Part shown: positions 9,248-53,762 of the stretch, one piece after another
Layout: every line of letters begins with the position of its first letter
How positions within the stretch are numbered: the stretch's first letter is position 1
Assembly (NCBI RefSeq): GCF_002441935.1
Contig: NZ_CP023668.1
Location: 682,001-746,000 of the forward strand
Source of the DNA: Mesoplasma lactucae ATCC 49193
Lineage (GTDB): Bacteria; Bacillota_I; Bacilli_A; Mycoplasmatales; Mycoplasmataceae
Length of the DNA stretch: 64,000 nucleotides
Reading direction: 5' to 3'
Program-made: the position numbers and the translations under genes
Notes under the pieces: generated by a model
The model's database searches: none
The model's input: the letters and a program-made list of their open reading frames with translations, nothing else
Told to the model about the DNA's origin: nothing

Positions 9248-10441
9248 TTAAAAACTCTTATAGTTAACTATTTTATCATTGTTTAGGCTAATAACAGCTG
9301 GTTTTTCATAACGTAGTTTATAAGTAACTTTTTTATCAATGAAATATCGATTAGTTTTTTTCTTATCACAATAGCTTTTTAGCTTATAAGAATCATAATC
9401 ATTACTAATTAAATAAGGGAATTTGAAGCCATCTTCATCCATTACTCTTTGTAAATAAATGGTTTCTTGTAAGAAATTTAATTTACTAAAGTCTTCACGA
9501 TTGTTAATTTCAATTGAATAAGTTTTAAATCATTCTTCTTTTACAAAATAAATTCGGTCATAATCTTTAACTAAAAAATAATCTTTGCACTTAATTTTTA
9601 AGAATGTTTTCTTAGTATCTAAAAGTTCGGTAGCTATTTCTTTTAAAAAGTTACCATTGTAATCAAGAAGTTTTTCATCTAGTTTTAAATAATTAGCGTA
9701 ATAAATAATGATAAACATTACTTGTTTTAAATCTTGTTTGTGAAAATTTTCAGTAAGGATTAAATCCTTTGCAGTTAGATTATTGTTTACATAAAACTTT
9801 GCAAAAGTTTTTAATTTTTCGTTTTCTAGATTTGCTTCTTTGATTTCCTTTTCATATTTAGGAAAATCAGCTTCAGAGATTTGAGATCTAATTTTATTTC
9901 TCTTGTATCTAATATCTGAATTTGTTTGGTCAATAACAAACGGGATATTAAGTTCTTTATCTTTTTCAAGAATTGTGCTTTTCAACATATTCAATAAGGG
10001 ACGAACGACTATTAATCCTTTATAGTCAGATACAAACTTAAGTCCATAGTAAGAAACTATAGACCCTCTTTCTTCTTGTAGCAAGAAAGTTTCTATAGAA
10101 TCATTCTTATTATGGGCTATGAATAGATACTTAGCATTATTTTTTCTTGCTACGTCTGCAAAAAAATTGTATCTTATATTTCTTGCGTATTTTTCAAAAT
10201 TTTCATTTAGTTTTTTATAGATAGAACTATCTATATTTTTAACCTGTAGTTCTATATTATTCTTGCTACAGTACTCTTTGACTAATTCTTCATCTTTAAT
10301 TGAATTTTCCCTATAGTTATAGTTTACGTGACAAGCAATAATGTTTTTATAGCCTTGTTCTTTTAAACTATTTAAAAGATACATACTATCAGGCCCACCT
10401 GAAACACCAACTAAAATTCTCTCGTTTGATTTAATCATCAT
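9248..10441 (-). CDS. tilS: tRNA(Ile)-lysidine synthase
   Basis: A 397-aa protein with the PP-loop ATP-binding motif SGGPDS at residues 14-19. TilS adds lysine to C34 of the tRNA(Ile) that carries a CAU anticodon, so that it reads AUA and not AUG. The C-terminal part beyond a TGA (Trp) at 9530-9532 continues to a TAA at 9248 and corresponds to the usual C-terminal domain. The start is ATG at 10441, directly followed by a second ATG, with AGGTGA 6-8 bases upstream. It lies 10 bases after the methyltransferase gene and is probably in one operon with dnaX-recR-tmk-holB. Confidence 0.93.
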
Positions 10442-10451
10442 TGTTTATCAC

Positions 10452-11174
10452 CTAATCTCTAAATAGATCTAATACTTGTTGAGTATAAGTTTCATCAACA
10501 TTATGAGCGATGATTGCTGGAAGTATAGTCATTCCTTTATTTCCTTGCTTCTCACCTTCAATTAATACAGTTTTGGCATCATAACCAGGTTTAGAATAAA
10601 TGAATTGCATCTTTTTAGGAGTAATTTTGTATTTATTAAATAGTTCAATAATTTCTCCAATTCTTTCTGCTCTATGAACCATAGCAAAAGTTCCACCATT
10701 ATTTAAGCAAAGACCTGCAGACTTAACAATTCCATCTAAATTAATTAAGGTTTCATGACGGGCATTAACAACTTCTTGGCTAATTTCACGAGTTTTTGTT
10801 TTTTCACCGACTTCGAAGAAAGGTGGATTACAAATAACTACATCAAATTGATGTACGTTTTCTTTTGCAAAATCTGCAATATCATTTTGAACAATTTTTA
10901 TTTGTGATTGAAGTTCATTTAAATCAACGTTTTCTTTAGCTAGTTCAACAGCTTTAGGTTGAATTTCTACCCCAGTAATATTAGCATTTGTATATTTACT
11001 TATTATTAAAGGAATTACAGCATTATTTGTTCCAAAATCTACAATTCTTTTTTTCTTTGCATTAAGACTTACAAAGCGAGCTAATAAAATACTGTCTAAT
11101 GTGAAGTTAAACATTTCTGTATCTTGATAGATATGTCTATCCTTGTAACCTAGTAAGTTATTAAGTTCTTTCAT
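10452..11174 (-). CDS. trmN6: tRNA1(Val) (adenine(37)-N6)-methyltransferase-like enzyme
   Basis: A 240-aa Rossmann-fold methyltransferase. SAM motif I is D-F-G-T-N-N at 46-51, an acidic motif II residue is at G-V-E (68-70), and the catalytic NPPF is at 116-119, typical of N6-adenine methyltransferases of the TrmN6/YfiC group. The start overlaps the holB stop by one base (…CATTAA on the plus strand), so translation is probably coupled, and AGAGGTGA lies upstream. The exact tRNA target is inferred from family membership. Confidence 0.8.
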   Translation of the reverse strand: MKELNNLLGYKDRHIYQDTEMFNFTLDSILLARFVSLNAKKKRIVDFGTNNAVIPLIISKYTNANITGVEIQPKAVELAKENVDLNELQSQIKIVQNDIADFAKENVHQFDVVICNPPFFEVGEKTKTREISQEVVNARHETLINLDGIVKSAGLCLNNGGTFAMVHRAERIGEIIELFNKYKITPKKMQFIYSKPGYDAKTVLIEGEKQGNKGMTILPAIIAHNVDETYTQQVLDLFRD

Positions 11175-11920
11175 TAAATCACCTCTGCTATTTTAATCAC
11201 GAAGCGGTCTATAGCTAGATTTGGATTATTTGAAAACTTCAAATCGTTATAAAATTCTAATAAATTTTCATATATTTCTATAGCACAATTTTTTAAGAAA
11301 GAGTTCATGCTATTTTTAACTATATCTTGTAGTTCGTTTTTATCTAGGTTTTTCATTTTATTATTCATTAATAGAATACTATCTTTATTTTTGGTTTTTA
11401 TAATTTTAACAATAAAAGTTTCTTCACTCATGTTTTCTTTTTCATTAGATAATGATAATAGTTTTGCTCTAGATTTTATAGTTGGTAAAATAGAGTTTCT
11501 GTCATTTGTTTCTATAAAGAAATACGTATCTTTAGTTGGTTCTTCCAAGAACTTAAGTAAAGAGTTTGCTGCATCTACTTTTAAGTCTTCGCCATTTCTA
11601 ATGATTGTTATCTTAGGTTTTCCTTGTTCCATAGCTGAATAACTAAGTTCATCAATAGTATTCTTGATTAATTCTTTTTTAATAAGATCATTATGATTAC
11701 CGATTATTCTAAAATCTAAGATTCCTTGATTATCGAATTTTTCACATCATTCACAACCATCATCAGTTAATGAAAGATTTTCACAATATAACATTCTCGC
11801 TACATCAGTTGTTAAATCTTCTAGAGCATTATTATCTTCAGCATCAAATAAAATACTTTCAAACATTTTATTTTGTATATAGGCAGATTTTATATATTCT
11901 AAGATTTTATTTTTTTTCAT
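11174..11920 (-). CDS. holB: DNA polymerase III delta' subunit (clamp loader)
   Basis: A 248-aa protein. It contains the conserved clamp-loader block A-A-N-S-L-L-K-F-L-E-E-P, followed by an S-R-A-K motif in place of the arginine finger S-R-C. A Walker A motif is absent, as usual for delta'. Three cysteines between residues 48 and 62 recall the zinc module of the gamma/tau and delta' family. The first part is only seen if the TGA in C-E-W-C is read as Trp. Start 11920 lies 14 bases inside the end of tmk. With dnaX upstream in the same cluster, it supplies the sliding-clamp loader. Confidence 0.87.
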
Positions 11921-12533
11921 TTTTTAATTTTTCATCCACAATTCTTATAGCTTGTTTTAATACATTATCTTTATCTTTATTTGCATCAACTACTTCGAAT
12001 CTTTCTGGGTGTTTTTTAATTAAATCTTTATAGCCAGAAATTACTTTCTTTTTATAGTCATTATTTTCTTCATCTAAACGATTCTTGCTTTCATCTCGTG
12101 TGTTCATTCGAGCATTAGCAACATCGATATCAACATTGAAGTATAAAGTTAAATTAGGAACTCATTCACCAAGTACAATGTGTTGTACTTCATCGATATC
12201 GTTAACTTTTAACCCTCTTCCAGCTCCTTGATATGCACTAGTTGAATCCATGTATCTATCACATATGACAATGTATCCATCTTTTAATGCAGGAATAATA
12301 ACATCAACTAAATGTTGTTTTCTAGAAGCAATGAATAACAAAGCTTCAGTTCAGGGATCCATTTTTTCATCACGTTTCTTTAATAAAACGTTTCTAATTT
12401 CTTCAGATATTTTAGTTCCTCCAGGTTCCCTAGTGACTAAAACTTTATATCCTTCATCTTCTAAGTGTTTTTTTAATGGTTCTACGACTGTGGTTTTACC
12501 TGAACCATCTGGTCCTTCTAAAGTTATAAACAT
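11907..12533 (-). CDS. tmk: Thymidylate kinase
   Basis: A 208-aa P-loop kinase. Walker A is GPDGSGKTT at 8-16, followed by REPGGT near 37-42 and the D-R-Y-x-D-S-T motif near 95. It phosphorylates dTMP to dTDP for DNA synthesis. A perfect AGGAGG stands 6-7 bases before the ATG at 12533 and is partly formed by the end of recR. Its last 14 bases overlap the start of holB. One TGA is read as Trp at M-D-P-W-T. Confidence 0.93.
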
Positions 12534-12544
12534 ACTATTGCCTC

Positions 12545-13129
12545 CTAATCGTCTTTTTTTCTATTTTTTAATGCATCTGAAAGAGTTTTTTCATCGACGT
12601 AATCCAAAACTCCTCCCACCGGTATTCCTCTAGCAAGTCTTGTGTATTTAATGCCTCTTTGTCTTGCTATGTCTCTTATATAATTAGCAGTTAATTCTCC
12701 ATTGAAAGTGGAATTTAGAGCTAATATTAATTCTGTATTTTTATTAGTTCTATTAAAAAGCTTATCTATAGTAAGTTTGTCAGGTGTTATATTCTTTGAA
12801 AGATTAATCTCCCCATTTAATACAGCATATGCCCCGTTATAATCATGAATTTCTTCTATAGTCATAGCATCTGACATAGTAGAAACTACAGCTATAAGAT
12901 TTTTATCTCTATCAGGGTCTGAGCAAATAGGACAAACATTATCTATAGTCATATAAAAACAAGTAGGACATTGACCTAAATCATTTTTAATGATGTCTAA
13001 TGCTTCTTGCGCATTTTCAATTTTGTTATTTTTGTTAACCAAATCTATAGCCATACGCTTAGCGGATTTTTTAGTTACTCCATCAAGAAATCTTAATTTT
13101 TCAACAACTTCATCAAATTTATTTTCCAT
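12545..13129 (-). CDS. recR: Recombination mediator RecR
   Basis: A 194-aa protein, close to the usual RecR length. An N-terminal helix-hairpin-helix region precedes a C4 zinc finger (C-P-T-C … C-P-I-C, about residues 53-68) and a Toprim domain. RecR acts with RecO/RecF to load RecA at gaps. The order dnaX-recR is widely conserved in Firmicutes, though the small yaaK gene usually between them is absent here. Four copies of CTATAG lie in this short gene. GGAGAA precedes the start, which lies 2 bases after the dnaX stop. Confidence 0.93.
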
Positions 13130-13131
13130 AG

Positions 13132-15111
13132 TTATTCTCCAAAGTTAATATCATCTAAATCAAATAACTTAGATGCGTTCTTTAACAATTCTTTATCTTC
13201 TTCTGAATTTTTACCATTGATAACATTTTTGTTATTTAAATAAAAGTTTTTGACGTCTTCTCTGGAATAAATTGGCAATAAATTTTGTTTTTTAAGTTCT
13301 GAGAATGTTATCTTAGATTCTTTTCAATAATTAGCACTAATCGCATACACAACATATTCTTGTCCTAATAAATTATTTAATTCTTTTCTGAAACTGTCAT
13401 TAAGTAATTCATGATTAATTAAATCAGCTTGTGAGTTTGTATCAGTAATTATTATTATTTCATTATTGTTTGCAGCTGTTACTTTTGTATTGAAGAATGA
13501 TGCTAAAGAATTTGCTTTATCTTTATTTATAAATTCATCAGAATCATCGACTTCAAAGATTGAATCAATTTTATCGGTTAATTCGTGGCGTAATTCTGGG
13601 CGTTTGTCTTCAATTACACCCATTAAAACATTAATAAGATCACTTATTAAATATTTAATATGTGTTTTGTTAGCAACCTTTTTCGCCTTTTCGGATTGCG
13701 TTTCAATTAATTCATTTTTGTTGTTTGCAATTTTATTAGCATCGATAACAGCCTTTGTTTCAGCAGTAAAGCTTAAACTGTCAAAGGTTAGACTTTCGTC
13801 TTCAGGACTTTCTGAAGCAATTGTTTTTTCAGTATTTTTTTCTATTTCTTCAAAAGAATCATCTTGATTCAATTCAATTGGTTCTTCTTCTATAGCCATA
13901 GCAGGTTCTTGAACTGCTTTTGTAGCTATAATCAGTTCATTATCTATAGCTGGAATTTGTTCAAATTTAACTACAGGTTTTTCTATTTCATTTACATTTG
14001 GTTTAGTATCTATAGATATCTTTTTGTCTTTGTTATCTATAGACTTTAAAATACTTAATAATATGTAATCGAATGAAGCGGTATTATTCTTTGTTTTAAT
14101 ATATGCATCTGTTAAATTGTCAGCTATAGTAAATAATTTTTCTATAGGAACATTTTTAAACTCTTGTGCATCATCTTCGTTAATATCTTCAAGTAATTTG
14201 CTATCACCAGTTAACTTAAATTCAATAAGCTCTTTAATAATCTTAATTAAAGCTAATGTAAGCACATCGAAATTCATTCCTTGTTGTTTATTCTTTTCAA
14301 AATAATCAATAATTGTTGTATATTCTCCGTTAATAACATTTTTGATGATATTTACCTTTTCATCTTTTGTAGCTACGTAAAATATTTCTTTAACCTTATT
14401 TATATCAATATTCTTAGTGTCATTAGAGATAATCATTAATTGTTCTAAAACATTTAATGCATCTCTTAAAGATCCTTCTGATAAAGAATATATTTCATTA
14501 GCAGCTTCTTCAGTTATTGTATAACCCTCTTCTTTGGCAATAAAATTAATTCTTTCTTTTAATGCATCATTAGATATCTTTTTAAAACTAAAAGTTTGAC
14601 ATCTTGAAATGATAGTCTGAGGAATTTTATCGTATTCAGTTGTAGCAAGAATAAATACTACATGAGCGGGTGGTTCTTCTAAAGTTTTTAGTAGTGCATT
14701 AAAGGCTGCTTTGGAAAGCATATGTACTTCATCGATTATGTAAACTTTATATTTTCCAGCTATAGGTAAAGTTTGAACTGCATTTGTTATGTTACGAATT
14801 TCGTCCACTCCGTTGTTTGAAGCAGCATCTATTTCATAGATATCTGGAAATTGATTTTGATTAAATGAAACACAATTATCACATTCATCACAAGGATTAC
14901 CGTCTTGTAAATTTTGGCAATTAATAGCTTTTGCTAAAATTCTTGCTATAGAAGTTTTACCTGTACCTCTTTGTCCGGCAAATAAATATGCATGACCAAA
15001 AGAATTATTTTTTAATTCTGAAGTCAAGATTTCAACTATATTTTTATGTCCTGCAACATCCTTAAAATTAGAAGGACGGTAGGTACGATATAAAGAATTA
15101 TGTTTCTCCAT
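13132..15111 (-). CDS. dnaX: DNA polymerase III subunits gamma/tau
   Basis: A 659-aa protein. The AAA+ domain has Walker A GQRGTGKT near 46-53, four zinc cysteines at about 65, 74, 77 and 80, the DEVH Walker B, and a sensor region. A long acidic linker follows, then a C-terminal tau-like domain. A TGA (Trp) at 13324 is followed by 63 more codons to a TAA at 13132. Start: ATG at 15111 is chosen because GGGGTG lies 6-8 bases upstream; a GTG at 15120 is also in frame. Eight CTATAG palindromes occur in the gene, far more than in most neighbours. It heads the dnaX-recR-tmk-holB-trmN6-tilS cluster. No slippery A-run frameshift site was evident. Confidence 0.94.
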
Positions 15112-15134
15112 TGTTAACACCCCGTTATCATTTA

Positions 15135-24581: not shown

Positions 24582-25391
24582 CTAATAAGAGTTGTTATAT
24601 AAATTTATATATTGGTCTAAATCAATGTTTTCTGGTCTTAAGTTTTCAGATATTTGGGTTTTATTTAAAACATCTTTCGCTTTTTCTTTGTCTCCTAGAA
24701 CTCTACCTAGATTATTTAAGATTGTTTTACGTCTATTATTAAAAAGTTGTCTTACAAACGAAATGAACTTTTGTGGGTCTTTTACATCATTAACATGATC
24801 ATTATTGAAAGTTAAACTAACAATTGCGCTGTCTACTTTTGGTATAGGTCTAAACATTTTTTTAGGCACTGTGAATTCATATTTTGTAGTTGCATAAAAA
24901 TCACACGCTATAGATAGATTATTATAGTTATTTTCATTTACTTTAGCACATACTCTTGTAGCCACTTCTTTTTGCATCATGAATACAGCTTTAGTTAATA
25001 AGTCATGTACATCTAAGGTATTGAATAAAATTTCACTTGTTATGTAGTAAGGCATATTAGAAATTAAAAAAACATTCTTATAGTCATATTTTTTATTTTC
25101 TCCAGCTATAAGTTCTCGTAGGTCAACTTCTAAAGCATCTTTAATAATTAGTTCAAAATTTTCACTATTTATTTCTTTATTTAAGATATCCTCCATATCT
25201 CTATCAATTTCTATAGCTATAACTTTTTTAAATCTTTTCACTAATTGTTTGGTTAGAGCTCCTTTACCAGGACCGATTTCTATGACTAAACTATCTTTTT
25301 CATTACCTAATAAGTCAACAATCTTTGTAATTAAATTTGGATCACTAATAAAGTTTTGTCCAAATTGTTTTTTTGCATTAATTTGTTCCAT
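24582..25391 (-). CDS. ksgA: 16S rRNA dimethyladenosine transferase
   Basis: A 269-aa SAM-dependent methyltransferase. It begins with the family pattern K-K-Q-F-G-Q-N-F at about 7-14. Motif I is E-I-G-P-G-K-G-A-L-T near 39-48, and the catalytic N-M-P-Y-Y-I-T is near 113-119 (usual form N-L-P-Y). It dimethylates two adjacent adenines in the 3' hairpin of 16S rRNA. The start lies within the last 14 bases of rnmV, and its AGAAGGA site is inside rnmV, so the two are coupled. Confidence 0.94.
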   Translation of the reverse strand: MEQINAKKQFGQNFISDPNLITKIVDLLGNEKDSLVIEIGPGKGALTKQLVKRFKKVIAIEIDRDMEDILNKEINSENFELIIKDALEVDLRELIAGENKKYDYKNVFLISNMPYYITSEILFNTLDVHDLLTKAVFMMQKEVATRVCAKVNENNYNNLSIACDFYATTKYEFTVPKKMFRPIPKVDSAIVSLTFNNDHVNDVKDPQKFISFVRQLFNNRRKTILNNLGRVLGDKEKAKDVLNKTQISENLRPENIDLDQYINLYNNSY

Positions 25392-25932
25392 TGTTTTTTC
25401 CTTCTATAATTTTCTTTACGTCTTCTACGTTATTTCCCATTCAATTTAATCATTTAAATAATGTTTTTGAGCTAGTTTTTGAATCAAAACTATAGTAATT
25501 ACAAATGATTGTTCTGTTTTCTTTTAAATAGAAATCATTATCCAAATATTCATGTCACGAAATAGTTTGATTATCATTATTAAATTCAATTAAATTGTCT
25601 AAAGCATCTCTAATAGCTTCTTCAGTCGCTTCAGCAATACCAATCTTTTTCTTTCCTTCAACCATATCTTGTTTGGTGATAAATGCATTCTTAACTTTCC
25701 CAGGGAATTCTAAGTTAATTCTTTCTCTTATTTTCTTTCCAGGGCCATCTGGATCAGTAAAGACAATAATTTCGTTATTTTTAGACGCTTTTTTAATGTT
25801 GTTTAATATTTTGTCGTTTATTCCAGCTCCAGAAGTCTCGATTGTCTTAATAGAGTCTCCATAAATTTTCTTTAGCTTCTGAGTGTCAGTTTTTCCTTCA
25901 ACTATTATTAAACTATTCTTAAGTTCTTCCAC
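25378..25932 (-). CDS. rnmV: Ribonuclease M5 (5S rRNA maturase)
   Basis: A 184-aa Toprim protein with I-V-E-G-K-T-D at about 9-15 and the metal-binding T-D-P-D-G-P-G-K near 59-66. RNase M5 trims 5S rRNA precursors in Gram-positive bacteria and mollicutes. The start is GTG at 25932 with AGGTG 7 bases upstream. A TGA (Trp) at position 126 is followed by 58 more codons to TAA at 25378. The order dnaN-rnmV-ksgA is typical of Mesoplasma and the M. mycoides group. Confidence 0.9.
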
Positions 25933-25939
25933 TTATAGC

Positions 25940-26135
25940 ACCTATTTTCTATTGTTATAGTCATATTTTTATTACTAAACCCTTTATTTATAATGGTTTT
26001 TATAGTCATACTAATTTTATATCCATAGCAATATTTTTATATTCCTATAGTCGTATTTTTTACAATCTATAGCTATAATTCTTGCTATAGATATAATCTA
26101 TAGTCATATTTTATATTATTTAATCGCAACTTACG
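25940..26135. repeat. Non-coding gap with a cluster of CTATAG / TATAGTCATATTTT repeats
   Basis: This 196-base stretch has four CTATAG palindromes within about 60 bases (26045, 26067, 26085 and 26098) and several related short repeats of the form TATAG-TCATA-TTTT (near 25958, 26008, 26048 and 26099). No ORF was found. The repeats are seen directly; their role is unknown. Confidence 0.7.
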
Positions 26136-31166: not shown

Positions 31167-32528
31167 ATGGCTCAAATTAACGATACAATCGTAGCTCCTG
31201 CAACTAATATAGCTACTCAAGCTATATCCTTGATCAGAATCAGTGGAGAAGATGCTAGAGAAATAACTAATAAAATGACTAAAAAACCAGTTCCTGACAA
31301 ACGTGGATTCTATTTACGCAAGTTATATGAAGGTTCTGAACTAGTTGATGAAGTAGTTATTAACTTCTATAACGCACCTAATTCTTTCACTGGTGAAGAA
31401 GTCGTCGAAATTGCCTGTCACGGGGGTATTTTAAACACAAACCATATAATTAACGTAATTCTTAAAAACGGCGCAAGAATGGCCCTTAAAGGCGAATTCT
31501 CGCAACGTGCGTTCCTAAACGGAAAGATAGATTTAATTCAAGCTGAAGGAATCAATGATTTGATTCATGCTTCAAATGATTTAGCTTTAAAAATTGGTAT
31601 CGATAATATGAGCGGAAGTCATAATAAAGCTGTTTTAATTCTTAAAGAAAAATTAATGGACATAATCTCAAGAATTCAAGTTTCTATAGACTATCCCGAC
31701 TATGATGATGTAGAAGGTTCTTCTCATGAAGACCTAATTTTATTACTACAACAAATCGCTAATGATGTAGATGGAATTATTAAACGTTCTAAAATGGCTG
31801 TGAAGTCTGTAGACGGAATTAATACAGCTATAATTGGTGAAACCAATGTAGGTAAATCTTCATTATTAAACGCTTTAATCAATGAAGATAAAGCTATAGT
31901 CACAGATGTTCCTGGTACAACCAGGGATATTGTAGAAGGAAAAATCAATTTAGGCAATACGACTATAAATCTTATAGACACTGCTGGAATTCGTGAAACT
32001 ACAGATGTCGTTGAAAACATAGGTATTAATAAGTCGAAAGAATATATAAAGAAAGCTGATCTTGTTTTATATGTTGTTAACTATGACAACTATAAAGATA
32101 AACAAAATCAAGCTATGTACAATCTGTTAAAAGATAAACAACATATTATTATTCTTAACAAATCAAAAGACTTAACTTCAGAACAAATAAAAGAAGTTAA
32201 CAATTACTTCGGAGAAAAAGTAGTTACTACAAACGCTCTATATGGAGATATTGATAACTTAATCAACTTGATAGAAGATAAATATAATAATGAAGAAATC
32301 TTAAAAGAAGATAGCCTGGTGCTAATCAATTTAAACCAAATTTCATTATTAGAAAAGGTATCAAGTAATGTTCACAAAGCTCTTGATAATATCAAAGCAG
32401 ATTTCCCTATTGATATAGTTAATGTAGATCTTTATGAAGCATGAAACTATTTAGGTGAATTGATTGGTGAACAATATGATGAAGAAATCATTGATAACAT
32501 TTTTAGAAAGTATTGCTTAGGTAAATAA
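31167..32528 (+). CDS. mnmE: tRNA modification GTPase MnmE
   Basis: A 453-aa protein. The N-terminal folate-binding domain is followed by a helical domain that carries an inserted G domain: G1 GETNVGKSS at 224-232, G3 D-T-A-G near 272, and G4 L-N-K-S-K-D near 332 (usual form N-K-x-D). It ends with C-L-G-K, matching the family's C-[IL]-G-K. With MnmG, encoded at 48.3 kb, it places the carboxymethylaminomethyl group on U34 of certain tRNAs. GAGGTGAAAAT precedes the ATG. tatD begins 2 bases after the stop. Confidence 0.95.
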
Positions 32529-32530
32529 AT

Positions 32531-33337
32531 ATGCTAAAAGAAGACTTAACAAAAATTTATGATGCTCATACTCATTTCAATGATTCTAGCTATGAAGAAA
32601 ATGGTATAGCTATAAAAACTATAGTAGAAGATGCTGAAAAAGAAGGCGTAGGTTACTTCAATGATGTAGCTTTCGATTTAGATTCATCTATTCTTGCTAT
32701 AGAACAAGCTAAACAATTTGATAACGTATTTGCTACAGTTGGAATTCATCCGACTGAAATCGAAACTCTAACAAATGAAGTTTATGACCAATTAAATATT
32801 CTTGCTATGGATACAAAAGTTGTAGCTATAGGCGAAGTTGGTATAGATTATTTCTATACAAAAGAAACTAAAGAACAGCAAGCTATAGGTTTTCAAAAAA
32901 TGATTGATTTAGCTATAGCTAGAAATAAAACATTAATGATGCATATACGTGACGAAAGAAATGTCTATACAGCCTATGATGACGCTATAGCTATACTTTC
33001 TAGAAACTCTATAGCTAGAAAAGTTGTTCATTGTTTTTCTGCTAATGTCGATTATGCTAAGAAATTCCTAAATTTAGGATGCTATATAGAAATCGGCGGA
33101 GCAGTTACTTTTAAGAATGCTAAAGAATTACAAGAAGCTGTTAAAGTTATACCTCTCGAAAGAATGCTTGTTGAAACAGATGCACCATATTTAACACCAC
33201 ACCCTCATAGAGGTGAAATGAATTTCTCAAAGAACATTGTTCTTACTGTCGAAAAGATTGCCGAACTTAAAAATGTTTCTAAAGAAGAAGTTATTGCTAA
33301 AACTACCGAAAACGCATTTAACTTGTTTTTAAAATAA
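32531..33337 (+). CDS. TatD-family metal-dependent nuclease (copy 1)
   Basis: A 268-aa TIM-barrel hydrolase. The metal ligands are seen as H-T-H at about 13-15, E in A-I-G-E-V-G near 100, H in M-H-I-R near 138, H in V-H-C-F near 163, and D in V-E-T-D-A-P-Y near 215. The family are 3' exonucleases or deoxyribonucleases acting on damaged DNA or tRNA. It follows mnmE with a 2-base gap and is probably translated by coupling. Seven CTATAG palindromes lie in 807 bases, the densest gene in the window, while the paralogue at 34070 has none. Confidence 0.9.
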   Translation: MLKEDLTKIYDAHTHFNDSSYEENGIAIKTIVEDAEKEGVGYFNDVAFDLDSSILAIEQAKQFDNVFATVGIHPTEIETLTNEVYDQLNILAMDTKVVAIGEVGIDYFYTKETKEQQAIGFQKMIDLAIARNKTLMMHIRDERNVYTAYDDAIAILSRNSIARKVVHCFSANVDYAKKFLNLGCYIEIGGAVTFKNAKELQEAVKVIPLERMLVETDAPYLTPHPHRGEMNFSKNIVLTVEKIAELKNVSKEEVIAKTTENAFNLFLK

Positions 33338-33374
33338 TCATTTCATGTACTCTAAATAAAAGGAGAACTATATA

Positions 33375-33941
33375 ATGTGATATCTACATACATTAGACAA
33401 ATATAACTATCTAGTTACTGAACTAGAATGAAAAAACTTCGTTAATGGTTATAAACCTAACGAGCAAAAGGGATTGGAAAAACTTTATAAAAGACTTACT
33501 GCTTCAGATAAAAGTACTGTTCGTGGATTAAGAATTTTATTAGACATTATCGAAAACGATCCTAAAATGAAAAAAGAACTTGGAATTAATCCTTTTAACT
33601 TAGCTCCAATTGGATTAGAAAGTTATGTAAACTTTGCAGATGAACTCAACTTAGTTGTTTATAAAGTTAATGACTTTACTCAATCTGGTTCTTTGTTTTC
33701 GAATGAAAAATCAAAAAACGCAGCAATTTATACTGAAAAAGAATTAATTGCTAAGATTGATGAAAAATTAGATTCTGATTACAATTACTTAAAAAATTTC
33801 CCAACATCATACATCATTATTCTTTTACCAAGCACCATGGATGAATCAAAAACCAACATTGCTAAAAAGGTTCAAGAATTAAAAATGAAAAGCTATGATT
33901 ATGATAAAAAAACAAACATAGTAAAAATTATTGTTAAATAA
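33375..33941 (+). CDS. Hypothetical protein between two tatD genes
   Basis: A 188-aa protein not recognised. It starts M-W-Y-L-H with a TGA as the second codon, so the standard code hides the start. It is mixed polar, with no clear membrane segment, signal or cysteine pair. One hydrophobic strand (S-Y-I-I-I-L-L-P near 146-153) suggests a globular cytosolic fold. AGGAGAACT stands 7 bases upstream. It is in line with mnmE-tatD and followed by a terminator, so it is probably the last gene of that unit. Confidence 0.75.
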
Positions 33942-33950
33942 TCCAATCTA

Positions 33951-33984
33951 AAAAGACAGCCTTTCTACTAGGTTGTCTTTTATT
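33951..33984 (+). terminator. Terminator after the hypothetical gene
   Basis: A 12-bp stem (33951-33962 with 33970-33981, one G-T pair) with a 7-base loop, followed by a T-rich run. Confidence 0.8.
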
Positions 33985-34069
33985 TCGCTTTTTTATACCT
34001 ATAATAATTCAAAAACTATATTTTAGTTTTCTTTTAGTTATAAAATTAAAATATATGGAGGGATTTAAA

Positions 34070-34864
34070 ATGGCAGGAATTTATGACACACACGTCCATT
34101 TAAATGATCAAATTTACTTAGACTTAGATGTAACTTCAGCTGATATTGTCAAATCAGCAACCCAAGCAGGAGTATCAATTATGAATGTTGTTGGTTATGA
34201 TGTTAAATCATCTAAAATCGCATTAAGATATGCAAACGAATATCCAAATTTATATGCAGTTATTGGTATTCACCCAAATGAAGCACAATACTTTACAAAA
34301 GAAGCAATTCATTCTTTAGAAGATTGAGCTAATGGTGACAATGTAGTTGCTATTGGAGAAACTGGATTAGACTATTCTAAATCAAAAGAATTTGCAAAAA
34401 ATCAAAAAGAAACTTTTGAAGCCCAAATTGATATAGCACTAAACCTAGGATTACCAGTTGTTTTACACATTAAAGATGTTGACGGATCATTTGAAGCTTA
34501 TGATGATACTATTGAAATCTTAAAAGCTAAGAAAGTTAAAAAAGCAGTAGTTCACTCTTATGAAGGCGACTTAGCTCATGCAAAAGAATTATTTGCGATG
34601 GGTTATTATTTATCATTTTCAGGAGTAATTACTTATAAAGAAAATGCTGAACTATTAAATGTAGTTAAAGCTTCGCCAATCAATCAAATTATGATTGAAA
34701 CTGATTCACCTTATTCTGCACCAGTTCCATTTAAAGGAAAAGTAAACTATCCTAAAAATGCTGTAATTGTAGCTGATGCTGTAGCAAAAGCTAAAAATAT
34801 GGATGTAGATGATTTGATATCAGCTACAAGAACAAACGCACAAAAATTATTTAATGTAGACTAA
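34070..34864 (+). CDS. TatD-family metal-dependent nuclease (copy 2)
   Basis: A 264-aa paralogue of the gene at 32531. Ligands: H-V-H at 8-10, E in I-G-E-T-G-L-D-Y near 98, H in L-H-I-K-D near 135, H in V-H-S-Y near 160, and D in E-T-D-S-P-Y near 210. The start at 34070 is preferred over an in-frame ATG at 34055 because GGAGGGATT lies between them at the right distance and the protein then begins at the first motif. It has its own TATAAAAT box upstream. Codon choice differs from copy 1 even in the shared A-I-G-E motif. Confidence 0.9.
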
Positions 34865-35410: not shown

Positions 35411-36946
35411 TTAAACTAAATCTTCGAAGTTTAAGACTTTATCAGCCCAGTTAGTTTCGAAATTTATATCATGGGTTGTTAGAAGAACAGTACCTTCAAA
35501 AGCATTGATAGCTTCTAAAAGTGCTTCTTTTGCAAGAACATCGATGTGGTTAGTAGGTTCATCTAATATCAATAAACTAGATGGAACTAAACTTAACGCA
35601 GCTAAACGAACTTTTGTTTGTTCTCCCCCGGATAACAATTTCATCGGGTTATTCATTAAATTCGATTTGATACCAAAACGGCCAATAGTAGCGCGAATTT
35701 CACCATCCAACATATTTGGATATTCGCGTTTTAAGAATTGGACAGGTGTTTCATCACCTGCATGTTCAACTTGGTGGAAGAATGCCACTTCTACACCATT
35801 ACCAAGTTCAACTTTTCCATCTATTGGTTTTATCTCTCCAGCTAAAGTTTTTAAGAATGTAGTTTTACCAATACCGTTGTACCCTTTAACAATTGCCTTT
35901 TCACCTTCTCTAAGTTCGAAGTTTAAAGGATTTTGTAGTAGGGGAAAATCATAACCTATTTCTAGATCTTGAATTTCTGCTACAACACTTGCTGCAGGTC
36001 TTTTGTATTTAAAACTCATGTTAGGCTTAACTAGATCTTTGCGTTCTTCTAACACATTCATTTTATCTAATTGTTTTTGTCTTGATTGAGCACTCTTTGC
36101 AGTTGATGCTCTTGCCTTGTTTTTATTTACATATTCTTGTAACTTAGCAATTTGTTGTTGTTGAGACACGACAGCCTTATCATATTGTTCTTTTCTTAAT
36201 TCTGATAGCTCTAAATATTTTTCATAATTACCAACATAGCGATTTATTTGTTGATTTTCTATTGCATAGATAATATCAACAGTTTTGTTTATAAAGTCGT
36301 TATCGTGAGATACCAATAAGAAAGAATTTTCATAAGATTGTAAAAATCTTGCTAATCATTCTACTTGTTCAATATCTAAAAAGTTTGTTGGTTCATCTAG
36401 AAGAATGAAATCATCATTTTGTAGCAATAATCTTGCTAACAAGATTTTTCCTCTCTGTCCTCCAGATAATTGTCCAAGCTTTTTGTTCATATTTTCAGGA
36501 TCGATTCCCAATCCTGAGACTAAGTTCCCGATTTGTTTATCGATTGTGTCGAAACCTTTTAAATCTAGTTCTTCTTGTAAAGCTAATGCTTTGACTAGAT
36601 CCTCTTCTTTATATTCAATTGCCATTTCTTGGTAAATGTTTTGGATTTGATCATTTATCTTGTACAAGTCCGCAAATGCGCCTTTTAAGTAGTCTTCTGA
36701 ACTAATTGACATATCTACGTCTTGGTGTTGATCTAAATAACCCATTTTTGCCTTTGGGTGTATTTCGATAGTTCCGTGGTCAGGTTGATCCTTACCACTT
36801 ATAAGATTCAATAATGTAGTTTTACCAGCACCGTTAGCCCCTAATAAGGCAACGTGTTCACCTTTGTTAACTCTCAAGGTTGAATCTTTGTATAGTAACT
36901 TGTCACCATTTGCATGACTTAAGTTTTCTACAAATACTATACTCAT
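35411..36946 (-). CDS. ABC-F family ATPase (ribosome-associated, two ABC domains)
   Basis: A 511-aa protein with two ABC domains and no membrane segments. Domain 1 has Walker A GANGAGKTT near 34-42 and L-S-G-G-Q-R-G-K near 154; domain 2 has GYNGIGKTT near 345-353 and L-S-G-G-E-Q-T-K near 436. A charged helical linker of about 80-90 residues (about 235-320) joins them, typical of ABC-F. These proteins bind the ribosomal E site; some give antibiotic protection, others (EttA, Uup, YbiT types) regulate translation. The start ATG at 36946 with GAGGGAG is preferred over one at 36994. Which subgroup it belongs to cannot be decided here. Confidence 0.9.
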
Positions 36947-36978
36947 GAATATTGCTCCCTCGTTATTGCATAACACAA

Positions 36979-37002
36979 ATTGTATACAATACATCTATTA
37001 TA
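36979..37002 (-). promoter_or_regulatory. Promoter and perfect palindrome of the ABC-F/marR operon
   Basis: The minus strand has TATAAT (36997-37002), then after 6 bases the 12-bp perfect palindrome ATTGTATACAAT (36979-36990), covering the expected start point. The core TTGTATACAA is the kind of site that MarR-family dimers bind. A second copy of the core is at 59502-59511. Confidence 0.55.
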
Positions 37003-50422: not shown

Positions 50423-52054
50423 ATGAAGAAAAAAGGTAATAGGAAAGCATTTGAGTTTTTAACTTTATTTGTTATGGTTATTGGTTCTGTAATTGGTGCT
50501 GGTATTTATATTAAAAATAGTAGTATCGTTAAAGAAACGGGAAATCCAATCATAGCCATAATTTTATGAGTTATAGTCGGAATAATTTGTACATTAGCTA
50601 TTATTGTTTTCATGGAAATAGCATCAGCTACAAAAGATGTTGGTAATGGTACAGCTCCAAACTGAGCTAAGATTTTTATCAACCGCAAGACTGCTTCATT
50701 TTTTAGTTTAGTTTATACAATTATTCTTTGACCTTCTTATTATTCTTTATTTGCAGGAACTTTTGTCTACTACATGTTAGTTTTAATTGGAGTAGATTTA
50801 TCTGCTGGTAGCCAACTAGCAATTTATTTAAGTTTAGGAATCTTTTTATTAGTAGGGTTCTACTTATTTAATGGATTATTACCAAAATACTCTAAATGAG
50901 TTCAAATTGGTGGAAACATCTTTAAATTCATTCCTTTATTAATTGCACTTGTAGCAGGATTTTGTATGATTGATAGCAACTCTGCAATGTTCAATGGGGG
51001 ATTTAACGGAGCTGAATGATCTGAAAAACAATGAGAAGCTTCAAGTTTCTTTAGAGGGTTTGGTGGAATCTTATTATCATTTGATGCCTTTTATTTCATA
51101 GCCAATTCACAAAAAACAGCAAAGAATAAAGATGTTGTTCCTAAAGCTTTATTTGTTGGAATGGTCTTTGCAGCATTATTTTATGTATTAATGGCTGTGT
51201 CATTATTCTTAGGTTCACCTGATGGATCAATCTTTGAACTATTTGCAAAAATGTTTGGAGAAGATTCTAAAGTATCTGCTATCTTACCTCCAGTATTAAT
51301 GATGATAATTTGCCTATTATCCATCAATATGTTTACAGCATTTGGAATGGCTAACTTAGAATCTGATGTAGAAGCTAAACTTGTTTATGTTGGAAAACGT
51401 AGAGGAAAAGTAAGTTTATTTAAATGCGGAAGCGTACAAATCATTTTTACAGTTATAGTTTATGTAGCCTTTACTTTAATGGGATTCTTTATACCTAGAG
51501 CAGGATACTCATGAGGAAGTTTTTCTAACTATAATAAAGATGGAATTCTTGCTATAGCAGACCAACCTACAGACTTCTTAAGTATCATGGGTTCTGTAGC
51601 CGCAATTCTTTCATTCGTAATGGTAGATATTTTAATCTTTGCTTGCTTAGTAAATAGAAAAACAAATAAAGTTAAAGTCGACAGATACAAAGGTGTACCA
51701 GTTTTAGGTACTATCTCTGGTATAGCTATAGCCGTATTTATTATAGGTGGTCTATACACATATATCGATGTAGACCCTAAACATGTAACGCCATTTAAAG
51801 ACACTATAGGTCTATACTTCTTAATATTATTTATAGCTATGCTAGCTATAGTAACAATCGCATTCTTTATTCAAGAAGCCTTATTCAAGAAATATCCATT
51901 TAAAGATGGATTTGACGGTTACTTAGAAGGCGAAGATCCTATTCCGTTCTTCTTTAAAATAAACCCAATTCAAAACTATTTCACTAAAAAAGGTGAAGAA
52001 GAAATCTATGATGATGAACATCCTAGATCCCATAAACGTTCTAATAATAAGTAA
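50423..52054 (+). CDS. APC-superfamily amino-acid permease (copy 1)
   Basis: A 543-aa protein with about 12 membrane segments. Helix 1 carries the APC substrate-binding motif G-S-V-I-G-A-G-I-Y near 22-30, and helix 6 has F-R-G-F-G-G-I-L-L-S-F-D near 213-224. A charged C-terminal tail ends it. The family imports amino acids or related compounds; which ones cannot be told. It has a close paralogue directly downstream. AAAGGGAAAAG precedes the ATG. Four CTATAG sites lie in its last third only. Confidence 0.87.
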
Positions 52055-52145: not shown

Positions 52146-53762
52146 ATGAAGAAATTCTCAAACACAAAAGCATTTGAGTTTATGACTTTGTTCGTAATGG
52201 TTATTGGTACTGTAATTGGTGCTGGTATATACATTAAAAACACTGAAGTTCTTAAAGCAACACAAAACCCCATTATTGGGATTATCTTATGAGCTATAGT
52301 TGGTATAGTCTGTGTTTTATGTGTTCTTGTGTTTATGGAAATTTCTTCTGCAACAAAACATTTTGGTAATGGTACTATAGCTAACTGAGCCAAAATATTT
52401 GTTAATAGAAAAACTGCATCTTACTTTAGTCTTTTATACACAATTATTATTTGGCCAGCTATGTATTCTTTATTTGCTGGAACATTTATATTCTATTTAC
52501 TTAAATTAATGAATGTAGAAATGTCTAGTGGAACTCAATTAGCCATTTACTTAGGATTAGGAATCTTCTCAATGATTATGCTATTCCTATTCAATGCCTT
52601 TTTACCTGCTGGTTCTAAATGAGTTCAAGTAATTGGTAATGCATTTAAGTTCATTCCATTATTCGTAGCTCTTATAGCTGGATTTTGTATGATTAATGAT
52701 AACTCTGCAATGTTTAATAATGGATACAAAGATAGTACTTGATCAACTAGTGACTGAGAACCATCTAGTTTCTTTAGAGGGTTTGGAGGAATCTTATTAT
52801 CATTCGATGGATTCTATTTAATTGCTAACTCTCAGAAAACTGCTAAACATAAAGAAGTTGTACCTAAAGCGTTAATGGCTGGTATGACATTCGCTGCATT
52901 ATTCTATGTATTAATGGCTGTATCGTTATTCTTAGGTTCACCAGATGGTTCAATTTTTGAACTCTTCGCTAAGATGTCTGGTGGAAATGCCACTGTAGCA
53001 AGAGTTATTCCTGCAATAATTATGATGCTTATTTGTTTATTAAATTTAAACTCATTCACAATGTTTAGTATGTCTAACCTAGAATCAGACGTTGAAGCTA
53101 AACTTGTTTATACAGGTGTGCGTAGAGGAAAAATTAGTAACTTTAAATCTGGGTTAGTTCAATTGACTGCTTCAATAATAAGTTATTCAATTTATATCTT
53201 AATGGGATTCTTTATTACAAGAAATGGCTATGGTGGTTGAGATAGCGCAAAACATGCTATAGACCAAGCTGTAACGGATTACACAGGGATCATGGGTTCT
53301 GTAGCCGCAATTCTTTCATTCGCAATGGTAGATATCTTAATCTTTGCTTGCTTAATTAATAGACGTACAAACAAAGTAAAAGTTGAGAAATATAAAGGAG
53401 TTACAATATTAGGAACTATCTCTGGTATAGCTATAGCTATATTCGTTATTTGTGGTATTTATACTTTTATTGATAGTGATCCAACTCATAGCACTAAATT
53501 TAGTGATACAACAGGAATGTACTTCTTGATATTGTTTATAGTCATGATGGTTTTTGTGACTATAGTATTCTTTATACAAGAAGCCCTGTTCAAGAAATAT
53601 CCATTCAAAGATGGATTTGGAGGTTACTTAACAGAAGAAGACCCAATGCCTTTATTAATTGCAATCAATCCAATTAAAAACTACTTCACTAAAAAAGGCC
53701 AAGAAGAAGTTAAACAATACGAACAACAAGATAAGCCTAAGAACAAAAGAAAACGAAATTAA
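52146..53762 (+). CDS. APC-superfamily amino-acid permease (copy 2)
   Basis: A 538-aa paralogue of the gene at 50423, alike along its whole length. G-T-V-I-G-A-G-I-Y is in helix 1 and F-R-G-F-G-G-I-L-L-S-F-D in helix 6. Blocks such as G-S-P-D-G-S-I-F-E-L-F-A-K-M are identical. The two differ most in loops and the charged tail, so they may have distinct substrates. Five CTATAG sites occur. The ribosome-binding site is weak (AGAAAG). Confidence 0.87.

Follow-up and report, generated by a model that had tools for sequence, protein, structure and literature searches.

The tatD paralogues and their CTATAG sites

Why would one of two neighbouring paralogues be crowded with a palindromic hexamer that the other lacks altogether? 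The window (i.e. the whole 64,000-base stretch that was analysed, bases 682001-746000 of the 837,471-base single-contig genome G000, in whose genes TGA is read as Trp) contains two tatD genes separated by 717 bases, of which the upstream one harbours seven CTATAG sites and the downstream one none. Direct listing of the sites confirmed these counts and the spacing (about 700 bases) as reported in the initial annotation, together with the codons that it had quoted for the V-A-I-G-E motif common to both copies (GTA GCT ATA GGC GAA in tatD1, GTT GCT ATT GGA GAA in tatD2). The features of the locus are as follows:

32531..33337, + strand: tatD copy 1 (tatD1), TatD-type DNase (Pfam PF01026, E 2.6e-70)
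32619..32624: tatD1 CTATAG site 1, ACT ATA GTA
32697..32702: site 2, GCT ATA GAA
32826..32831: site 3, GCT ATA GGC, in the V-A-I-G-E motif
32883..32888: site 4, GCT ATA GGT
32913..32918: site 5, GCT ATA GCT
32985..32990: site 6, GCT ATA GCT
33009..33014: site 7, TCT ATA GCT
33375..33941, + strand: 188-aa ORF between the copies, no Pfam family, ATA 1/15, no CTATAG
34055..34864, + strand: tatD copy 2 (tatD2) (Pfam PF01026, E 3e-74), no CTATAG

At the protein level both copies are ordinary members of the TatD family of DNases (PF01026 scores of 237.1 bits in tatD1 and 250.1 bits in tatD2, both over the curated cut-off of 27), in which nothing unusual was seen. Their genes differ in the share of Ile encoded by ATA (14/24 in tatD1 versus 2/20 in tatD2), and their proteins in the room offered to the hexamer: tatD1 possesses seven places ([ASPT]-Ile-[VADEG]) that allow CTATAG, all of them used, whereas tatD2 has two in frame 1 and two in frame 2, of which none is used. 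When synonymous codons were shuffled with the protein and the codon counts held fixed (10,000 shuffles), the expectation for tatD1 was 2.98 sites (P 0.0006 for the seven observed), i.e. its ATA codons explain about three of the seven sites and about four lie beyond the yield of its own codons. For tatD2 the codon shuffles gave 0.10 sites (P(0)=0.90), so that its zero is predicted by its own codons and needs no explanation. The proposal that the difference lies in the DNA and not in the proteins is thus only partly right, since the two proteins also permit unequal numbers of places. The 188-aa ORF between the copies had no match in the sampled stretches of the genus mate (G001), G003 or G020, and in the 11 relatives measured the tatD copies lie 31-475 bases apart.

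The two genes had also been put forward as a natural test pair, for which they are poorly suited, since the paralogues are ancient (36% identical), two TatD matches occur in 19/60 genomes searched in the family (G000 among them), and the contrast lies mostly in Ile codon choice and in the number of permitted places. In a tree of 41 TatD rows, each copy of G000 groups with its counterpart in G001 (99/96 for copy 1, 100/98 for copy 2), which indicates that the duplication predates the genus and that both copies were vertically inherited; vertical descent is likewise seen in 12 of 12 gene quartets, all of which joined G000 with G001. The check recommended in the initial annotation, i.e. the conservation of CTATAG in tatD1 orthologues, revealed no excess, an outcome that it had itself named as refuting: all 29 orthologues carry either no site or one (two in total, at 2/63 permitted frame-1 places), from which we infer that the excess arose in the G000 lineage after its split from G001. 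Site conservation was rejected for dnaX as well (25 relatives: 6 CTATAG versus 8.1 expected, 6/70 places used). Pooled over 11 relatives (copy-2 rows L013, L018 and L030 being excluded), the ATA share was 84/274 for copy 1 as compared to 55/247 for copy 2.

An excess of the hexamer across the sampled genome

The window as a whole contains 53 CTATAG, as compared to a mean of 12.7 (maximum 21) in 100 dinucleotide shuffles. The larger sample of G000 comprised 304 kb (the window and 12 further stretches) with 224 ORFs, taken from a purely mechanical call (table 4, minimum 110 aa) and including a few spurious ones; the stretches were picked partly for CTATAG clusters or gaps, and only three (L132-L134) blind to site positions. 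Under a codon-fixed null (synonymous codons shuffled within each gene, with the protein and every codon count kept) we observed 109 CTATAG versus 45.2 expected, the maximum of 300 null sets being 66. By observed/expected ratio (2.4x) the hexamer ranks first among the 2600 with an expectation of at least 20, and by z-score first to third of all 4096, depending on the run. When a further 52 kb, consisting largely of restriction-modification loci, were added (356 kb in all), the count was 116 versus 52, which is sixth by z, yet by far first among palindromes. The excess was retained under a junction-dinucleotide null (116 versus 52.5, range 39-61 in 20 sets) and under a 40-codon block null (116 versus 66.7, range 54-77 in 40 sets). 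As other, non-palindromic hexamers break the codon null too (e.g. TTCTTT, 271 versus 154), the z-scores are not exact. A similar ratio recurs across many stretches, including the three blind ones (17 versus 6.4), and intergenic DNA holds 17 CTATAG versus 7.1 (maximum of 200 shuffles 15). A wider motif, CTRYAG, was discarded (just 253 versus 222), as was an origin-proximal chromosome motif as the full account: the blind stretches show their excess outside the window, and the low-ATA genes inside it have 2 frame-1 sites versus 2.1.

The bias presupposed by the initial annotation is therefore real, and it extends beyond ATA codons. Besides the sites read as NCT ATA GNN (frame 1: 72 versus 32-33 in the 304 kb, codon-fixed), those read as NNC TAT AGN, which need no ATA codon, are in excess (frame 2: 37 versus 12-13); a frame-0 CTATAG would include the stop TAG. 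Among window genes rich in ATA, this codon is chosen in 37/42 CT_ATA_G contexts as compared to 10/29, 60/153 and 95/334 (28-39%) in the others, and the preceding codon is NCT in 37/42 cases before ATA-G as compared to 2/8 to 13/39 (25-33%) before ATT/ATC. In ATA-poor genes elsewhere, Ser is encoded by AGY in 19/30 cases after C-TAT versus 15/77 after T-TAT; TCN and AGY are unconnected by any single synonymous change, which argues against one mutational habit. The flanks matter as well: CTATAG without a flanking G stands at 41/26.1 (observed/expected), with a G on at least one side at 68/18.7, and as GCTATAGC (G/C on both sides) at 19/3.5, the strongest form (5.5x). This preference is symmetric (AGCTATAG 27/5.3, CTATAGCT 21/4.6), adjacent half-sites (TATAGCTATA) number 13 versus 1.0, and the one-mismatch neighbours of CTATAG are neither uniformly raised nor uniformly lowered. 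Two reading frames, symmetric flanks and intergenic DNA together show that the excess acts on the DNA sequence itself and not on the codon.

Among relatives, the codon-fixed ratio of CTATAG (in the largest sample of each) ranged from 0 to 1.48 in all 31 genomes, with 0.44 in the genus mate; the values were 0 to 1.10 in 21 relatives and 0.36 to 1.48 in ten further ones, and for G032 the ratio was 1.10 when 40 kb were sampled and 1.32 with 60 kb. By raw counts of GCTATAGC in 248 genomes of the order, G000 (32) is exceeded by G083 (59), G038 (51), G195 (43) and G032 (35), whose codon-fixed CTATAG ratios do not exceed 1.43 in the largest samples. Taken together, these observations show that the CTATAG excess is real, lineage-specific, exerted at the DNA level and strongest as GCTATAGC.

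Four genomes with many GCTATAGC (G195, G160, G133 and G105) had appeared mildly raised in CTATAG in 20-40 kb (1.4-2.0) and were dropped at 60-160 kb (1.1-1.5). In these same genomes, which belong to two other families, CTGCAG stands at about twice its codon-fixed expectation (37/19.7, 63/28.2, 31/16.6 and 18/9.3, respectively; stretches L212-L213, L220-L221 and L224-L244).

Filling of permitted places along the window

The genes of the window were identified by profile (dnaX, recR, holB, tmk, tilS, ksgA, a yidC-like gene and mnmE) or are presumed from gene order (dnaN, dnaA, gyrA, gyrB, ftsH, serS and rnmV). Those relevant to the distribution of CTATAG are:

9248..10441, - strand: tilS, 3 CTATAG (2/3 frame-1 places and one in frame 2)
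11174..11920, - strand: holB, 2 CTATAG (2/3 places)
12545..13129, - strand: recR, 4 CTATAG (4/4 places)
13132..15120, - strand: dnaX, 8 CTATAG (8/10 frame-1 places)
24582..25391, - strand: ksgA/rsmA, 2 CTATAG (2/3 places)
26045..26103: intergenic cluster of four CTATAG (59 bp), flanked by dnaN and the rnmV-ksgA pair
31167..32528, + strand: mnmE, ATA 16/58, 2 CTATAG in 4 permitted frame-1 places
35411..36994, - strand: ABC-F-like ATPase gene, ATA 14/36, 0/8 places used
50423..52054, + strand: amino-acid permease-like gene, 4 CTATAG (4/6 frame-1 places)
52146..53762, + strand: amino-acid permease-like gene, 5 CTATAG (5/5 frame-1 places)

The density of CTATAG climbs with the ATA share of a gene: genes in the lowest bin carry 0.09 per kb and those in the highest 2.43 per kb. 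tatD1 is one of a set of ATA-rich, vertically inherited genes (tatD1, dnaX, recR, tilS, holB, ksgA, mnmE and the two permeases) in which most or all of the permitted places are filled. Among the 67 ORFs with at least four frame-1 places only tatD1, the 5/5 permease and recR are full, and all three lie in the window; ATA-rich genes outside it (many of them restriction-modification or hypothetical) have a frame-1 count of only 11 versus 8.5. Upstream of the rnmV-ksgA pair (25940-26118) several TATAGTCATATTTT-like repeats were also observed.

DNA methyltransferases, restriction and repair

G000 encodes at least seven DNA methyltransferases: one of the Dam family, two D12 enzymes followed by an AlwI-like nuclease (L134 17251-19207 with L201 85-759; likely a type II restriction system), three C5 enzymes (two adjoining a type II nuclease-like protein) and one of Eco57I type, which adjoins a 265-aa protein without a family. 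None of the enzymes found has a known CTATAG specificity; PF01555 was not found in the genome and PF02384 matched a TrmN-like gene only. The Eco57I-type enzyme, weighed together with its neighbour as a candidate for the CTATAG enzyme, has M.BseCI as its nearest named structure and full-length relatives in G012 and G014 (the CTATAG ratio of G012 being only 0.12), and plasmid records gave weak methylase matches to it and none to its 265-aa partner. The MutS_I domain (PF01624) was detected in 0/25 genomes, G000 included, and in 11 of the 14 controls.

Recognition sequences of restriction systems are usually avoided in genomes. CTATAG resembles such sites in being a six-base palindrome in a genome with several type II systems, and differs from them in being enriched. 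In the 356 kb of G000, GATC (0.68), GTAC (0.65) and TCGA (0.72) fall under their codon-fixed expectations and TTCGAA is depleted (44 versus 82 expected), which may be the mark of active restriction systems.

Comparison with iterated palindromes and M.MpnI

The closest parallel that we know is found in the highly iterated palindromes (HIPs) of cyanobacteria, which have been known since 1995 without an agreed cause (Elhai 2015, PMC4390886). As described there, HIP1 (GCGATCGC) is an over-represented sequence in which G and C flank the hexamer of a methyltransferase, alternate HIPs (e.g. GGCGCC) occur in some genomes carrying matching methyltransferases, and the ratchet proposed for their accumulation requires mismatch repair. 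G000 resembles this picture in having a palindrome that is over-represented beyond composition and codons (109 versus 45, first by ratio of 2600 hexamers), in several frames and in intergenic DNA (72 versus 32, 37 versus 13 and 17 versus 7.1), and in a lineage-specific manner; furthermore, GCTATAGC is a hexamer core with G and C flanks (as in G-CGATCG-C) in a genome with methyltransferases. It differs in density, with 222 CTATAG (265/Mb) and 32 GCTATAGC (38/Mb) in 837,471 bases as compared to the roughly 1000-2000 copies per million bases given for HIPs (PMC4390886), and in composition, as its core is AT-rich (G or C at 2/6 positions in CTATAG and 4/8 in GCTATAGC), whereas HIPs other than HIP1 are put there at a minimum of 75% GC with one exception at 50%. 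Moreover, the enriched octamer is GCTATAGC and not GCGATCGC, the phenomenon was seen in one species of a mollicute order, and that species has no MutS and no methyltransferase of known matching specificity. On account of the lower density, the lower GC content and the lack of MutS we do not file GCTATAGC as HIP1; at best, judging by analogy, it would function like a HIP.

Within the mollicutes, a further parallel is M.MpnI of Mycoplasma pneumoniae and M. genitalium, which methylates CTAT (PMC3536716): CTATAG consists of two overlapping CTAT sites, and M.MpnI likewise belongs to mollicutes, ones with solitary adenine methylation. CTAT itself, however, shows no excess in G000 (1316 versus 1582, 0.83 of expectation). 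In a literature search of titles and abstract openings, which covered few subscription papers, no description of such a CTATAG excess was found.

Weighing the explanations

Our first choice, at a probability of roughly 0.4, is that the excess represents an iterated palindrome specific to this lineage, built like cyanobacterial HIP1 (G-hexamer-C) and probably linked to a DNA methyltransferase. One rival account is ATA codon use alone, under which weakly expressed genes use ATA freely and GCT ATA G runs yield the hexamer. Window genes and their G001 orthologues have correlated ATA shares (rho 0.48, p 0.003, n 36), which suggests that gene expression, or some such shared property of genes, may set the tolerance for ATA; the climb of CTATAG density with ATA share and the three or so tatD1 sites expected from codons fit as well. 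This account is nevertheless very unlikely and, as a full one, refuted (ATA use is a partial cause), given that the 2.4x excess remains at fixed codon counts, that frame 2 has its surplus without ATA, that ATA is favoured only with both CT before and G after, and that relatives with more ATA show no excess. Selection at the codon-pair or mRNA (translation) level for GCT-ATA-G would suit the place of strongest saturation, frame 1 of ATA-rich genes (37/42), but frame 2 and intergenic DNA show the same hexamer and the flank preference is symmetric, which makes it highly improbable. Least credible of all is the import of segments from a CTATAG- and ATA-rich lineage, for which an unsampled lineage inside the genus would be a conceivable source. 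The rich genes do occur in blocks, rnmV (window 25378-25932) is nearer by identity to G020 (60%) than to the genus mate (52-53%), and the inner branch shared with G001 is shorter for tatD1 (0.20) than for tatD2 (0.39); the TatD tree, for both copies, and all 12 quartets nevertheless join G000 with G001 (leaving an origin outside the genus unsupported), those window genes that have matches are grouped on one G001 contig (C3), and richness in CTATAG was seen in none of the 31 relatives tested.

Two further accounts carry more weight. A non-functional, context-dependent bias of mutation or repair that happens to end at CTATAG would be in keeping with the presence of the excess in intergenic DNA, its similar ratio in many stretches and the lack of site conservation between species; we regard it as doubtful, albeit a serious contender, as different changes (the third base of Ile, the preceding third base, Ser TCN to AGY) converge on the same hexamer and its one-mismatch neighbours are not uniformly shifted. 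Selected binding sites of a sequence-specific DNA-binding protein (nucleoid or regulatory), with no role for methylation, would be consistent with local arrays such as the four CTATAG in 59 bp upstream of rnmV-ksgA, with the adjacent half-sites and with the clusters in dnaX-recR-holB-tilS, mnmE-tatD1 and the permease pair. Most sites nonetheless lie within coding regions, where their placement is set by protein capacity, many genes with such capacity leave it unused and no candidate protein was found, so that we deem this account unlikely.

Under the methyltransferase-linked reading, CTATAG would be recognised by some agent, in all likelihood a DNA methyltransferase (alone or with a partner), that gives the sites an advantage or biases repair towards them, as proposed for HIPs. 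Avoidance of ATA would keep frame-1 sites down in strongly expressed genes, weakly constrained native genes would go to near saturation, and recently acquired genes would lag in filling. The ABC-F-like ATPase gene, native and ATA-rich with 0/8 places used, is a counter-example to this reading. The lack of MutS rules out the published ratchet through mismatch repair for G000, and direct selection for the sites or another repair path would be needed.

A bolder version, which we hold only tentatively and as a possibility, is that a mollicute lacking MutS evolved a HIP of its own (GCTATAGC), separately from the cyanobacteria, by a methyltransferase-linked drive under which almost all permitted places become filled (the saturation in weakly constrained native genes and the lag in recently gained ones being part of it). 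If true, GCTATAGC would be a separate natural case bearing on how and why HIPs come about, set in a small genome devoid of MutS, lineage-specific, near saturation in identifiable genes and accompanied by a genus mate without excess. Such a case would separate explanations based on selection for the sites from those in which HIPs are a by-product of mismatch repair.

Elsewhere in the genome, at 11900-13300 of the stretch G000:325001-345000 (L128), we observed a region of about 1.4 kb in which no ORF reaches 70 aa and no Rfam match comes near threshold; it contains many inverted repeats with loops reading GAGAGA and may represent either repeats or a large structured RNA.
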